From IMG/VR virus record IMGVR_UViG_3300008453_000559, positions 1 through 39,081 of that record: a stretch of DNA of 39,081 nt, one strand, 5' to 3'. The DNA is from a virus. The notes below the pieces were generated by a model. That model saw nothing but the letters and a program-made list of their open reading frames with translations, was not told where the DNA came from and made no database searches. The position numbers and the translations under genes were made by a program. Shown one piece after another: positions 24,948 through 35,838 of this stretch (position 1 is its first letter; every line of letters begins with the position of its first letter).

Positions 24948-25127
24948 TTATTTCTCCTTATTTCTTTTTCGGTTTCTTATTTCCAACTTTGATGGGCTAT
25001 ATCCACCAATAGTTCGACCTGTTTTGCGAGGCTTCTTAGGATTCTTTTTCCTAGCCTTGCCATTCTTACGTCCTTCATTAGCCATCACCTTTACTGGTGC
25101 TGGTTTTAAACCTTTACCTTTTGCCAT
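24948..25127 (-). CDS. Small basic protein, 59 aa
   Basis: ATG overlaps the stop of the proteasome-like gene (TAATG at 25127); TAA abuts the SSB start. Product MAKGKGLKPAPVKVMANEGR followed by a Lys/Arg/Pro-rich stretch and GRTIGGYSPSKL. Very basic; a nucleic-acid contact is possible by composition. No family recognised. Exact fit between neighbours supports the call. Confidence 0.7.
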   Translation of the reverse strand: MAKGKGLKPAPVKVMANEGRKNGKARKKNPKKPRKTGRTIGGYSPSKLEIRNRKRNKEK

Positions 25128-25660
25128 TATTTTACCTGCTTATGTGTTATAAATGGTGGTGCAGTAAATACATTGTTCTTTGCAGCGATATTCATTGCGT
25201 GTTTCCAAGTAGCACCAGCGTGTAATGCACCTATTGCATATGGTGAACCTGAACCTATGCCATAGACCCCATCCTCACGCATTAGTACTGACAATGAATC
25301 ATCTATTTCAAATATCATTCCACCTAATGCTATAAGGAAAATGAAATCTGAATCATCATTTTCTTTATCTGGCATGTAACCATTGACAGTTAATGCCACT
25401 CTCATTGATGGAACAACCATTGAAATCATGTAATGATATATATCTTTATATGCTGCAGAGTTAGGTGTTGGTGGTATCCAGTTATGTTGAATGATGTCGC
25501 AAGGTTGCGTTAAACCTGCACCTGCTATCAAAAACTTTCCACGTTTAGTAATCTTTTGCATTACTGGATGTGTGTAAGTTCTTCCATCATCATCTGTGAC
25601 ACGTGAGTCGGCAACTAATAAACAATGGTCTTTTCTTTGCAAACCAATTATTGTTGTCAT
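25127..25660 (-). CDS. Proteasome beta/HslV-like Ntn-hydrolase, 177 aa
   Basis: MTTIIGLQRKDHCLLVADSR aligns with the HslV and proteasome beta N-terminus: Thr2 becomes the catalytic Thr1 after Met removal, D18 takes the place of Asp17, and K36 is near the Lys33 position (MQKI). The later GVYGIGSGSPYAIGAL matches the IGSGGxYA motif of this fold. These form ring-shaped self-compartmentalised peptidases that need an unfoldase partner (HslU, Mpa). No partner is encoded here, so it could use a host ATPase or act alone. The ATG overlaps the Cys-peptide stop. Confidence 0.85.
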   Translation of the reverse strand: MTTIIGLQRKDHCLLVADSRVTDDDGRTYTHPVMQKITKRGKFLIAGAGLTQPCDIIQHNWIPPTPNSAAYKDIYHYMISMVVPSMRVALTVNGYMPDKENDDSDFIFLIALGGMIFEIDDSLSVLMREDGVYGIGSGSPYAIGALHAGATWKHAMNIAAKNNVFTAPPFITHKQVK

Positions 25661-26549: not shown

Positions 26550-26969
26550 CTAGTTAACCCAGCCTGCTTGCCCTTTGCGAATCCATTGTGGGTCGCATTG
26601 TTCTGCTTTACGTTCTTTAGGCAGTGCACACATCCATGCTTGCCATGGACCTCTGCCACCTACACCACTTCTATGAACTAATGGACCGTGCTTACAACTT
26701 GGTGCTGGACCTGTTGAGTTCGGTGGTGTAACAGGTGCAAAACCTGTTGATGATGATATTTCGGTAGCACCTAATGTTTTGGCTGCGTATGCAACTTGTG
26801 CACCTTCACCAATCACAGTTTCTTCTAGTGCACCAACAAGACTATCAACTTGTCCTGCAACTGCTTCTTCAATGTTCTTTTTCAATTCAGAAAAATCGCT
26901 ACCACGAACAGTAACAATAGTTCCGATTCTTGTTTTAACATTAACGACAAATGCTGATTCATTTGACAT
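26550..26969 (-). CDS. Conserved actinophage protein with C-terminal Cys/Trp motif, 139 aa
   Basis: N-terminal ~60 residues are a beta-helix region (VKTRIGTIVTVRGSDFSELKKN); a Pro/Thr/Ser linker follows; the C-terminus has CKHGPLVHRSGVGGRGPWQAW, then C and a late C-D-P-x-W-I, likely a single zinc site with C93, His, C113 and C124. The pattern recurs beside the nuclease and ATPase in actinophage replication modules. Function unknown; ssDNA binding is a plausible guess. Confidence 0.7.
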   Translation of the reverse strand: MSNESAFVVNVKTRIGTIVTVRGSDFSELKKNIEEAVAGQVDSLVGALEETVIGEGAQVAYAAKTLGATEISSSTGFAPVTPPNSTGPAPSCKHGPLVHRSGVGGRGPWQAWMCALPKERKAEQCDPQWIRKGQAGWVN

Positions 26970-27639
26970 TACTTATCTCCAATGTTCCTAATGGTAAGTG
27001 TTTCTCACCATTCACCCAATAACAGTAATCTGTTAATGAGCACATTTTACACCCATCGAAATTAGGAAGATAGATATCATGCTCTCTTGCCTTTTGGAAG
27101 AGTGCAACCATCTCATCTAGTTTCTTTAATGTAAACTTATCCAAGTTAACAGGATTACTTGTTGTTCCTGTTCTTGCCATCCAATAACATCCCCAACTTG
27201 GTCGGACGTTATACACACGTTCAAGTAAGCAAGCATAGACTTGTAATTGTAAATCTGTTTGAGGTGTTCTTTGACCAGTTTTTAAATCAAGAATAACAAG
27301 TTCACCATCTGGTGTTACAAATATTCTATCAACTGCACCTTTGAAAGATATGCCACCGATTTCAACTTCCATAGTAATTTCAATGCCAGGTTTTCCGTCA
27401 GGTGTTGTCCAGATTTTCCAATTAGAGTTATCACGCCAAGTAATCCAATTGTCTAAAAACTTTTTACCATTGGCATACCACCATGTGGCATTTTCACCGT
27501 CAGGGTTTGCTTTAGTGGTGCGAGATGATTGTCTTAAATCTTCAAGTTTAATTTCACCATTCTTAGTGGCTTCATCTAACTCAATTTTCCAAGCATCTTC
27601 CCATAATGAATTAAGAGATAACATTATTTTCTTTTCCAT
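26959..27639 (-). CDS. Cas4/RecB-like PD-(D/E)XK nuclease, C-terminal part, 226 aa
   Basis: Catalytic residues of the Cas4/RecB family are visible: D104 (KGAVDRIF), D118-L-K120 (VILDLKTG), and Q-x-x-x-Y in DLQLQVYACLL. The end has C197, C200 and C206 (C-x2-C-x5-C), three of four Fe-S ligands. The usual N-terminus, with the fourth Cys and the GxxxH motif, is missing here but present in the separate gene at 28102-28311. ATG at 27639 (another at 27624) overlaps the intervening gene. End-processing of phage or host DNA is the likely role. Confidence 0.8.
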   Translation of the reverse strand: MEKKIMLSLNSLWEDAWKIELDEATKNGEIKLEDLRQSSRTTKANPDGENATWWYANGKKFLDNWITWRDNSNWKIWTTPDGKPGIEITMEVEIGGISFKGAVDRIFVTPDGELVILDLKTGQRTPQTDLQLQVYACLLERVYNVRPSWGCYWMARTGTTSNPVNLDKFTLKKLDEMVALFQKAREHDIYLPNFDGCKMCSLTDYCYWVNGEKHLPLGTLEISNVK

Positions 27640-28112
27640 TTTTCTACAGGGTTTAAAATACTTCTAGGAATAATTTTACCATACTGGGCTTCAATACCTT
27701 TATCCCAACCTTCTTGGGCTGGTATCCAACCAAGTATTTCAACTTCAAGGAATTCTTTAGGAACTGGTACAACACCAAAAATTATTAAGTTTTCTTTTTT
27801 TAAATCTTTTTCTCTAACAGCAGGACCATCTTGCGTGCGTACTCTGCGTACTTCAATGTTAAGACCAACATCAGGTAAATCTTTATATTTTTTATGGTCT
27901 GAGCCTTTCCAAATGGTGGCTGACCAGTATTCATTAATTGCTTTAGCGACAGCAATTTCGCCAATCGCTGCAGCAACTAAGGCTGTGCGATTATCTTCCA
28001 TCTTTAACGGATTGTAATAAGGTGCATCAGGTTTACCCCAGTTGTTTGTATATCTTCTGATACCTATCGTGCTTGCATACTCATACTCCCAAGATTCTAA
28101 TTTAACTATCAA
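27624..28112 (-). CDS. Predicted PD-(D/E)XK-like nuclease lying between the two Cas4-like halves, 162 aa
   Basis: TTG start with a purine-rich leader (GGAAAAGAGAAAATC). Residues 50-63 (IGEIAVAKAINEYW), D81 and E87-V-R89 (DVGLNIEVRR), and LGWIPAQEGW (128-137) match an actinophage family that looks like a restriction-type nuclease core, with Arg in place of the usual Lys. Overlaps the N-terminal part by 11 bases and the C-terminal part by 16. Either a free-standing intruding nuclease or a gene moved into the Cas4 gene; activity unproven. Confidence 0.6.
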   Translation of the reverse strand: MIVKLESWEYEYASTIGIRRYTNNWGKPDAPYYNPLKMEDNRTALVAAAIGEIAVAKAINEYWSATIWKGSDHKKYKDLPDVGLNIEVRRVRTQDGPAVREKDLKKENLIIFGVVPVPKEFLEVEILGWIPAQEGWDKGIEAQYGKIIPRSILNPVEKWKRK

Positions 28113-28311
28113 GATTTTCTCTTTTCCAAAGTTCTAAATCATAGTTTTCTGTTGCACGATGCACAGCACTGCCACCTATAGACCAAGTGGCTGGTTGTTC
28201 TTCAACTTTAGCAATCCTAGATAAATAATAACGATAACCACAAGACAACCAAGTGGTTAAACTAGAATACGAAGTATGTTCAGGGACTTCGTGACCGTTA
28301 ACTTTTAACAC
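28102..28311 (-). CDS. Cas4/RecB-like nuclease, N-terminal part, 69 aa
   Basis: GTG start with GGAAGAGGG upstream. The sequence HTSYSSLTTWLSCGYRYYL holds C24, the expected first Fe-S ligand, and IGGSAVHRATENYD has H51 and E55 of the GxxxH motif of Cas4/RecB nucleases. The frame stops after KRENLDS, just where the intact family continues into what is now the gene at 26959-27639. Both halves keep their key residues, suggesting a functional two-chain enzyme. First gene of the leftward replication operon. Confidence 0.75.
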   Translation of the reverse strand: MLKVNGHEVPEHTSYSSLTTWLSCGYRYYLSRIAKVEEQPATWSIGGSAVHRATENYDLELWKRENLDS

Positions 28312-28343
28312 TTGACCCTCTTCCGATTATCGTAGTTAGAGAA

Positions 28344-28379
28344 GTAGGGCGTGTGAAATGGAGTAAACGCACGCCCTAC
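28344..28379 (-). promoter_or_regulatory. Leader hairpin 1 (loop complementary to gene leaders)
   Basis: GTAGGGCGTG (28344-28353) pairs with CACGCCCTAC (28370-28379), extended by one G-C and one wobble pair, with a 12-base loop. Read leftward the loop is TTTACTCCATTT, complementary to GAAATGGAG in the leaders of the genes starting at 30922, 31672 and 33970. Confidence 0.6.
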
Positions 28380-28383
28380 ATGT

Positions 28384-28412
28384 AGTGAACTAATTTGAGG
28401 AGGAAGTTCACT
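28384..28412 (-). promoter_or_regulatory. Leader hairpin 2 (anti-ribosome-site loop) at the predicted transcript start
   Basis: AGTGAACT (28384-28391) pairs with AGTTCACT (28405-28412) around a 13-base loop. Read leftward the loop is TCCTCCTCAAATT, complementary over 12 bases to ATTTGAGGAGGA, the ribosome site of the gene starting at 33236. The leftward promoter just upstream would start RNA close to 28413, the first base of this hairpin. Confidence 0.55.
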
Positions 28413-28419
28413 AAAACTA

Positions 28420-28448
28420 ACTGTAGCATCAGAATTACACTGGTGCAA
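28420..28448 (-). promoter_or_regulatory. Predicted leftward promoter of the replication operon
   Basis: On the minus strand: -35 TTGCAC (28443-28448), 17-base spacer, -10 TACAGT (28420-28425) preceded by TGC, an extended -10 form. It would start RNA near 28413 and read into the Cas4-like N-part at 28311. The match is moderate. Confidence 0.45.
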
Positions 28449-28472
28449 CTACCGAAAAGTTTGTGTCGGAAG

Positions 28473-28502
28473 TTGCGAGCAAAAAACCCCTGTGCTTATA
28501 AT
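28473..28502 (+). promoter_or_regulatory. Predicted rightward promoter for the lysozyme-like gene
   Basis: TTGCGA (28473-28478), 18-base spacer, consensus TATAAT (28497-28502). The -35 is partly inside the arm of the hairpin 28445-28476. The only rightward gene downstream is at 28668. Confidence 0.5.
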
Positions 28503-28539
28503 GGGCTCGGGGCGAGGGGCTCAGGGTATAGGGTGTGGG
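28503..28539 (+). other. G-quadruplex motif just after the TATAAT box
   Basis: Six G-tracts at 28503-05, 28509-12, 28516-19, 28524-26, 28531-33 and 28537-39 separated by 3-4 bases, a canonical G3+N1-7 motif on the plus strand. It begins at the base after the -10 box, thus at or near the transcript start. Confidence 0.7.
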
Positions 28540-28577
28540 TGTGAGCGTGAGCGAAAGCGAACTGCGAACATCAACAA

Positions 28578-28593
28578 GTACCCGTAAGGGTAC
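28578..28593. repeat. GTACCC-N4-GGGTAC hairpin, copy 1
   Basis: Perfect 6-bp stem with GTAA loop. It lies in the leader of the rightward lysozyme-like gene, 75 bases before its start. First of eight copies in the window. Confidence 0.8.
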
Positions 28594-28667
28594 AAAGTTC
28601 AAGACTCGGATGAGGATTGAACGTAGAAAGTCTGAAGATAATTCTTCAGCATAGGTAAGGAGAACCT

Positions 28668-28991
28668 ATTTTATTACCAGATATACCACCACCAATTGAA
28701 AGAGAAATTTCAGCAGAAGTTTCACGTGCATATGTTCGTGAACAAGTATTAATAAAAGGCTGGGACGGACGTCAATGGGTATGTATAAATGAGTTAATAG
28801 ATAGAGAATCAAAATGGAGTAACATAGCAGATAATCCTAAATCTTCTGCTTATGGTTTATTCCAAATGTTAAAAACGCCGATTGGTTTATCGGTTAGTGA
28901 GCAAACAGAGCGTGGGTTGCGATACATTGAGCATCGCTACGACACGCCCTGCGAAGCATTACGCCATCATAATAGACGTAACTGGTACTAA
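28668..28991 (+). CDS. Lysozyme-like (SLT/transglycosylase) protein, 107 aa, with probable ATT start
   Basis: The frame is open from 28659 to the stop at 28989 and encodes a small transglycosylase-like domain: CINELIDRESKWSNIADNPK with catalytic Glu47, SSAYGLFQML, then RGLRYIEHRYDTPCEALRHH and a final WY. No ATG, GTG or TTG occurs in frame before the domain. A strong AAGGAG (28657-28662) is 5 bases before an ATT at 28668, the likely start (rare but known, as in infC). It would cut glycan strands, either in the virion at entry or at lysis. It is the only rightward gene in a long leftward region. Confidence 0.7.
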   Translation: MLLPDIPPPIEREISAEVSRAYVREQVLIKGWDGRQWVCINELIDRESKWSNIADNPKSSAYGLFQMLKTPIGLSVSEQTERGLRYIEHRYDTPCEALRHHNRRNWY

Positions 28992-29076
28992 TACCTTTTA
29001 GTATTTCTTTTTACATATCTGTAAATTGATGCAAAGGTTATACAAAATAATACAGATATTATGAACTGCGTAAATA

Positions 29077-34655: not shown

Positions 34656-34700
34656 AAGTTTGTTGCGAGCCACAAGTTTGTGGCGAGAGTTTGTTGCGAA
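34656..34700 (+). repeat. Three direct repeats of the AGTTTGTKGCGA type, downstream of the HTH gene
   Basis: Copies at 34656-34669 (AAGTTTGTTGCGAG), 34674-34687 (AAGTTTGTGGCGAG) and 34687-34700 (GAGTTTGTTGCGAA), 18 and 13 bases apart. Same family as the five copies at 35587-35695. They lie between the promoter at 34574 and the HTH-gene terminator. Confidence 0.75.
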
Positions 34701-34711
34701 AAATTTTTGGC

Positions 34712-34754: not shown

Positions 34755-35435
34755 CTAGGCGTTAACCTTGGATTTCTTTCCTGCTTGCAATGCTTGCCAT
34801 TGGTCGAGCAATTGCTTTTCTTGTTCGGCAATTTTCTTCGGCATTACATTAATTACTTGTGCCCTGATTTGCTTGAACGCGTTCCATCTGTCCATTTCAG
34901 CAATTGAAGAGTCACCTAGTAATTCGATAACTTTATCGACTGCCTTTCCTAATTTTTTGGAACTATCGTTTTTCTTTTCTTCCTTTTCTGCCTTGACCTC
35001 TTCGACAGACTTTTCACCTGAAATCAATTCAGTGATTAATTTAGGGTCATCATGGGTCAACGCTTTCACTTGCAACTCGTCAAGTCCACGACTAGCCAAA
35101 TCGTCCGAGGTGTGAACTTTAAACACTCGACCAGATTTGATAATGCGACTCATTTTGTTTTTGTCGATTTCTAAGAAATCGGCTAATTCTTGCTGAGTCT
35201 TAAATACTTTATCCTCAATCGCTGAAAGTGCTGACACACTTGCAACTCTGAAAGATTGGCAAGCATCAGCATAGGTCGCTGATTTCTTTATATCTTTTAA
35301 GAGTTCGCTCACTTTATTTTCTGCGACCTCAGCAGATATGAAAAGGCTCTTCACCTCTTCTTGCCTTGCCATTAATACTTTTACATCTTCAATTGCTTGA
35401 ACTGCTTTCATTTTCTTTTCTTCTGCTTTATTCAT
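34755..35435 (-). CDS. ParB-like HTH DNA-binding protein beside the putative origin, 226 aa
   Basis: Central HTH at about residues 78-105 (FKTQQELADFLEIDKNKMSRIIKSG) of the ParB/KorB kind, between two charged coiled-coil arms (1-55 and 145-225). The ParB N-terminal CTP-binding motifs are absent and no ParA gene exists, so it is not a standard partition protein. It lies between two sets of direct repeats and beside seven DnaA boxes, the layout of a plasmid replication or copy-control locus. Likely role: origin binding or repression of its own transcription. Purine-rich leader and a GTACCC hairpin just upstream. Confidence 0.7.
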   Translation of the reverse strand: MNKAEEKKMKAVQAIEDVKVLMARQEEVKSLFISAEVAENKVSELLKDIKKSATYADACQSFRVASVSALSAIEDKVFKTQQELADFLEIDKNKMSRIIKSGRVFKVHTSDDLASRGLDELQVKALTHDDPKLITELISGEKSVEEVKAEKEEKKNDSSKKLGKAVDKVIELLGDSSIAEMDRWNAFKQIRAQVINVMPKKIAEQEKQLLDQWQALQAGKKSKVNA

Positions 35436-35586: not shown

Positions 35587-35695
35587 GAGTTTGTGTCCGA
35601 AAAGTTTGTGGCGAAAAAATCGGACATATCAGGACAATTCGGACATCGAGTTTGTGGTGAAAAAATAGGTTTGTTTCGGTAAAGTTTGTGGCGAA
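35587..35695 (+). repeat. Five direct repeats of the AGTTTGTGGCGAA type (iteron-like)
   Basis: Copies at 35587-35600 (ends GTCCGA), 35602-35615 and 35682-35695 (both AAGTTTGTGGCGAA), 35648-35661 (GAGTTTGTGGTGAA) and a diverged one at 35667-35680. All have the same orientation, and the last runs directly into the first DnaA box. TCGGAC and GTCCGA words are interspersed. Spacings are irregular (15, 46, 19, 15), so this is iteron-like but not a regular array. Confidence 0.75.
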
Positions 35696-35697
35696 AG

Positions 35698-35838
35698 TTA
35701 TCCACAGGTTATCCACACCTGTGCATAAGTCCTGTGGATAACTATTTAACTATCGGAGTGTTGCCTGTGGATAACATGTGAACAACCAGCCCCACTTATC
35801 CACAACTTATCCACACCCTGTGCATATCATGTGGATAA
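35698..35838. other. Putative replication origin: seven perfect DnaA boxes
   Basis: TTATCCACA occurs forward at 35698, 35709, 35796 and 35807, and reversed (TGTGGATAA) at 35733, 35766 and 35830. Six of them form two copies of one module: two forward boxes two bases apart, the word CTGTGCATA, then a reversed box; the seventh is alone in the middle. Such density of perfect boxes is a host-DnaA binding site. With adjoining direct repeats and an HTH gene this is best read as the phage origin; DnaA titration is an alternative. Confidence 0.75.

Follow-up and report, generated by a model that had tools for sequence, protein, structure and literature searches.

A G-tract downstream of a conserved phage promoter: a candidate structured RNA with a predicted 5′-terminal G-quadruplex

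Why does a phage genome of 38.9 per cent GC carry six runs of G directly after a perfect TATAAT box? The window analyzed here is an entire IMG/VR virus record of 39,081 bases that encodes terminase, DnaB-like helicase, primase, SSB-like, WhiB, and sigma-like genes. With OX376640/1 (LanE43-AprE7 and -AprF5), the isolated ‘Ca. Planktophila’ phages E7 and F5 (PMC10202952), it shares 60 per cent identity in the helicase and 54 per cent in the terminase, and because of this resemblance its host is likely a low-GC actinobacterium. Phages of freshwater actinobacteria are a little-studied group, and the first isolates infecting ‘Ca. Nanopelagicales’ are recent (PMC10202952).

The initial annotation placed six G-tracts with loops of 3–4 nt immediately after the TATAAT, and its coordinates are exact; the loops read CTC, CGA, CTCA, TATA, and TGT, in order. 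Scored against the genome background, 28503–28539 stands alone: neither strand of the 39 kb has another G3+N1-7 quadruplex motif. First-order Markov simulations gave an expectation of 0.03 motifs per genome and produced no six-tract case in 300 attempts. The maximum G4Hunter score (1.92) falls at the G-tract and is tied with that of one C-rich coding site near 1442. A chance run of G was ruled out by the Markov expectation together with conservation in relatives.

Our preferred reading, to which we assign a probability of roughly 60 per cent, is that 28509 to ~28650 encode a structured phage non-coding RNA of ~140–150 nt with a 5′ quadruplex. The G-tract would then be just the 5′ part of an element larger than the one initially annotated. 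Transcription by host RNA polymerase would begin at ~28509; the promoter is of the sigma-70 type, and a putative binding site for the phage's iteron-binding helix-turn-helix (HTH) protein abuts its −35 element. The RNA would open directly with the predicted quadruplex, continue into three or four hairpins, and end at an intrinsic terminator in most lineages. Because most lineages have this terminator, the element would be an RNA of its own; some read-through would make it, secondarily, a leader for the small lysozyme-like gene SLT, whose apparent start is AUU. For the quadruplex, we judge protection of the 5′ end from 5′-dependent decay the most likely role, and the resulting stable RNA would act on host or phage targets in trans. 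Comparison with relatives shows the promoter architecture, the conservation from +1, and the covarying hairpins; transcription, quadruplex formation, 5′ protection, and action in trans are what we infer. The RNA appears to be made by a group of viruses related to phages of freshwater actinobacteria.

Table 1. Features of the G-tract locus and the downstream gene (positions in the window).
Feature	Position	Strand	Remarks
Solitary iteron AGTTTGTGTCGGAA, abuts −35	28458–28471	+	One mismatch to clustered iteron
−35 hexamer TTGCGA	28473–28478	+	TTGC core kept in relatives
−10 hexamer TATAAT	28497–28502	+	Invariant in relatives
Discriminator with first GGG	28503–28508	+	Variable: GGGCTC, GGACGA, GAACGA, GGGCGA
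G-tracts GGG, GGGG, GGGG	28503–28505, 28509–28512, 28516–28519	+	Sequence read
G-tracts GGG, GGG, GGG	28524–28526, 28531–28533, 28537–28539	+	Sequence read
Predicted 5′-terminal RNA G-quadruplex	28509–28533	+	Four tracts from predicted +1; three layers in the window, four in L012/L013
Hairpin 1	28534–28576	+	Tandem GA/GA mismatches between short helices; loop GAAA or GAA
Hairpin 2, GTACCC-GTAA-GGGTAC	28578–28593	+	Compensatory changes in relatives
Hairpin 3 with GGAT loop and tandem GA mismatch	28597–28622	+	Three pairs with compensatory changes
Hairpin 4, CTGAAG..CTTCAG, no T-run	28631–28649	+	Terminator-like hairpin instead in L012/L013/L017/L103
Hairpin with Shine–Dalgarno AAGGAGA in loop	28651–28669	+	
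SLT/transglycosylase-like protein (107 aa; start apparently ATT)	28668–28991	+	PHROG transglycosylases, E 1.7e-19 to 4e-17

By comparative criteria, the TATAAT box of the initial annotation belongs to a promoter: the −10 is invariant across relatives, the −35 keeps its TTGC core, and the sequence of the 18–19 nt spacer between them is not conserved. The accompanying claim that the G-tract occupies the first transcribed bases is supported for the tracts from the predicted +1 onward but probably does not hold for the first tract, which lies 5′ of it and reads GGG, GGA, or GAA in relatives. Since this variable tract sits between the −10 and the likely start, the conserved and probably transcribed element consists of five tracts. 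An iteron stands beside the −35 in all aligned relatives, and L009, L017, L012, and L013 retain the core AAGTTTGTGTYG of the solitary copy. The clustered form of this repeat, AGTTTGTG(G/T)CGAAA, flanks the HTH gene of the window and its DnaA boxes.

A helicase search of viral contigs returned 17 loci (L003 and L020 are one contig). The site is spanned by L003, L004, L008, and L009 (94–96 per cent over the region), L017 and L012 (78–79 per cent), and L013 (70 per cent). L103, found through its SLT protein, begins within the element, and L015 stops within it. The SLT proteins of the relatives are 63–91 per cent identical. The known sequence types of the element are few and come from a single clade. 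Phages E7 and F5, which are related isolates, lack it, and covariance model R1 had no match in them. The outgroup L111 has the gene order of the window, an ATG start for SLT, and no quadruplex motif. Five related contigs end within the 270-bp zone 28270–28540, and for two the end falls inside the G-tract; drop-out of sequencing or assembly at the structure may be the cause, or else an effect of the divergent spacer.

The initial annotation had made its proposal hinge partly on conservation of the tracts in relatives, and they are conserved: 28509–28533 is 88–100 per cent identical. Identity is 75–100 per cent for hairpin 1 and 36–52 per cent for the upstream 144-bp spacer in divergent lineages. 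In L017 and L013, the best-conserved 45-column block of the intergenic and SLT region starts at 28509–28512 and exceeds the coding region; in L012, the best-conserved blocks of this size sit in the SLT gene. From the predicted +1, relatives share the pattern GGGG-CGA-GGGG-CU..-GGG-UAU.-GGG, followed by three hairpins. L012 and L013 differ by two A-to-G changes and one inserted T; each of these either is in a loop or extends a tract from three G to four. These three differences, at loops and tract edges, are too few to prove selection on a quadruplex rather than on the sequence. As a candidate RNA G-quadruplex, the stretch has at least four G3 tracts and short loops, is favored in the folding model, and is conserved.

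Quadruplex-aware minimum free energy folding predicted the same quadruplex and hairpins in all five full-length members that were folded (the window, L009, L017, L012, and L013). In these models, four of the five conserved tracts form the quadruplex, and the fifth, contained in hairpin 1, is also used by that hairpin. The modeled energy gain from the quadruplex is only ~3.3 kcal/mol in the window (with three layers), L009, and L017, and 21–22 kcal/mol with four layers in L012 and L013. The fold of the RNA from +1 has a z-score of −5.6. A covariance model built from close relatives finds the distant relatives with E values of 1e-14 to 1e-32, and 94 per cent of the cells in the structural alignment pair. 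The covariation score is 0.210, compared to 0.101 in shuffled alignments (0/500 shuffles as high), and shifting the pairing lowers it to 0.084 or less. Cells with double changes number 13, versus 5.0 in shuffles, and pairs changed on both sides number 5, versus 3.7 (alone not significant), counts that lean towards structure because the alignment was fitted to it. The compensatory changes are located in hairpins 2 and 3; in hairpin 1, L012 has an extra GUGA in the 5′ arm, matched by a GA in the 3′ arm. A role for the tract in the structure or stability of the transcript, as initially suggested, fits this conserved fold downstream. The hairpin types form a mosaic, with L012 sharing hairpin 3 with the window and carrying hairpin 2 of the L013 type, which suggests local recombination.

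No Rfam 15 family reached its gathering score in the window or in the loci of four relatives, and no tRNA or tmRNA was found. Among 43 loci, covariance model R1 identified no significant member outside the clade; its best further match (E 0.04) was at one of the dispersed hairpins described below. A 20-mer core of the element matches only two contigs among 257 Gb of bacterial genomes, a Bacteroidota MAG and Bacterium HR28, and R1 had no match in the HR28 locus. Three other candidates were set aside. Coding was rejected: the window has a 39-codon GTG frame running open across the RNA, but indels in relatives (GAAA/GAA, and an extra C in L009) shift it. Pairing of the G-rich part with the dispersed GTACCC hairpins was rejected by reasoning, as the G-rich part is near-identical where the hairpin sequence differs (L013). 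An anti-CRISPR RNA is unlikely given that ‘Ca. Nanopelagicales’ have no CRISPR-Cas (PMC10202952), an argument that depends on the host we infer for this phage.

The alternative that survives best is that the quadruplex and hairpins are the 5′ untranslated region of SLT, acting in cis with the Shine–Dalgarno hairpin and a weak AUU start so that expression is low or conditional. SLT is always directly downstream, its Shine–Dalgarno hairpin and ATT start are conserved, and the window has no terminator between the RNA and the gene. Given that the window lineage lacks a terminator with a T-run, the RNA may there be an SLT leader only. In four relatives (L012, L013, L017, and L103), however, a 13–14 bp terminator-like hairpin and a U-run stand ahead of the gene. 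Moreover, the G-tract block is conserved as well as, or better than, most of SLT, and in the outgroup L111 the gene has no such leader, a promoter-like sequence lying immediately ahead of its Shine–Dalgarno. On balance, we consider a leader acting only in cis unlikely. The SLT reading frame itself is conserved, but its beginning contains no ATG, GTG, or TTG start; the apparent ATT start at 28668 is kept across the clade and is ATG in L111.

A second alternative is that the DNA is the functional molecule. Transcription would leave an RNA–DNA hybrid on the C-rich template and allow a quadruplex on the displaced strand, which would then act in recombination or replication. Such a mechanism has been proposed for the gonococcal pilE quadruplex, where the promoter of a small RNA lies at the quadruplex, the transcript downstream is dispensable, and transcription acts in cis on recombination (PMC3547852). 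The two loci share a promoter directly at a quadruplex sequence of the non-template strand, a small non-coding RNA with its start at or within that sequence (predicted for the window), and a hybrid that would involve the C-rich strand. The adjacent RecB/Cas4-like exonuclease gene and the pile-up of contig ends are also consistent with this reading. In contrast to pilE, the RNA downstream of the window's quadruplex has conserved folds with compensatory changes, and there is no known recombination target. The contig breaks can also be explained by a divergent spacer beside a conserved block, there is no GC skew switch at 28.5 kb, and the likely origin of replication lies elsewhere. The R-loops raised by the initial annotation may form, as may a quadruplex in the DNA; a pilE-like function is improbable, and the structured RNA remains our preferred reading.

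That origin is likely the oriC-like cluster of iterons and DnaA boxes at 35.6–35.84 kb. Seven perfect plus one near DnaA box (TTATCCACA), the seven at 35698–35838, adjoin the second of two iteron clusters (34656–34701 and 35587–35696), which lie on either side of the HTH gene (34755–35435). In L189 and L192, iterons and DnaA boxes also adjoin the homologous HTH gene. An oriC-like origin in a phage suggests plasmid-like replication or partition. From the position of the iterons, the HTH protein would be the one that binds them. It has no useful sequence match in Pfam, NCBIfam, or PDB. Its AlphaFold model (pLDDT 72) has ParB/Noc/Spo0J among the top Foldseek rows at E values of 0.55 or worse, and VIA-align gave middling Z-scores to ribosomal S20 and ParB alike.

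With the origin probably at the DnaA boxes, the earlier suggestion that the G-tract primes replication is disfavored. The ColE1 RNA II primer is likewise a structured RNA with a G-rich stretch and a potential persistent hybrid with its template, but the window's element is away from the likely origin, and its G-rich part is 5′-terminal rather than at a priming site. A primer of the ColE1 RNA II or T4 R-loop type is thus very improbable: the G-rich 5′ end and strong promoter do adjoin the replication/recombination operon, but the oriC-like cluster is 7 kb away and the GC skew does not switch at 28.5 kb.

A small non-coding RNA in an actinophage would be of a kind already known, since abundant ones with no function so far are reported from the right ends of mycobacteriophages L5, D29, and StarStuff, from D29 intergenic region 63–64, and from Rhodococcus phage WC1 (PMC5712189, PMC10986025). 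They resemble our candidate, itself from a probable actinophage, in being intergenic, non-coding, and without an assigned function; they differ in position, at genome ends or among other genes, and the passages on them mention no G-quadruplex motif. A blastn search of 28300–29000 against 50,697 phage records gave no match, and with it no DNA similarity to RNAs of the L5/D29 type. In the open-access literature, a quadruplex at +1 and this fold are apparently undescribed. We raise, tentatively and with more doubt than confidence, the idea of a new class of phage non-coding RNA in which a quadruplex at +1 is the primary 5′ end, caps the RNA against 5′ decay, and is switched by an iteron-binding (possibly ParB-like) replication or partition protein. 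If the structured RNA is real, it offers a natural case for asking whether a 5′ quadruplex works as a bacterial cap and adds to the unexplained actinophage RNAs. The iteron at its promoter ties the RNA to the replication/partition region, which makes its regulation testable.

Several smaller observations concern the leftward genes. Hairpin 2 belongs to the sequence family of perfect hairpins, GTACCCnnnnGGGTAC, scattered among them (28578, 30938, 32123, 33301, 33981, 34359, 34538, and 35461). There are 18 two-strand matches, compared to 0.04 expected, and several lie directly upstream of leftward gene starts. Their sequence is lineage-specific, GTACCCCnnnGGGGTAC in L194/L009 and GTTGCCAATGGCAAC in L193/L013, and in L009 hairpin 2 of the RNA has the L009 form.

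The RecB/Cas4-like exonuclease (26959–28311) is split into ORFs 28102–28311 and 26959–27639 by an unrelated ORF at 27624–28112 (phrog_18407), of which tblastn found no copy in L015 or L017. A proteasome-beta-like protein (25127–25660; Pfam E 1.5e-4, slightly short of the curated cut-off) is encoded beside the helicase gene. Finally, in the leader of the leftward operon, the stem of a hairpin at 28344–28379 is rewritten yet paired in five lineages, and its loop is constant (AATGGAG(A/T) on the plus strand, UCUCCAUU on the minus strand). One A.C/G.U position in L017 favors the minus strand. The loop is complementary to gaAATGGAGAaag just before several leftward gene starts, which suggests a possible antisense action of the loop on those ribosome-binding sites.
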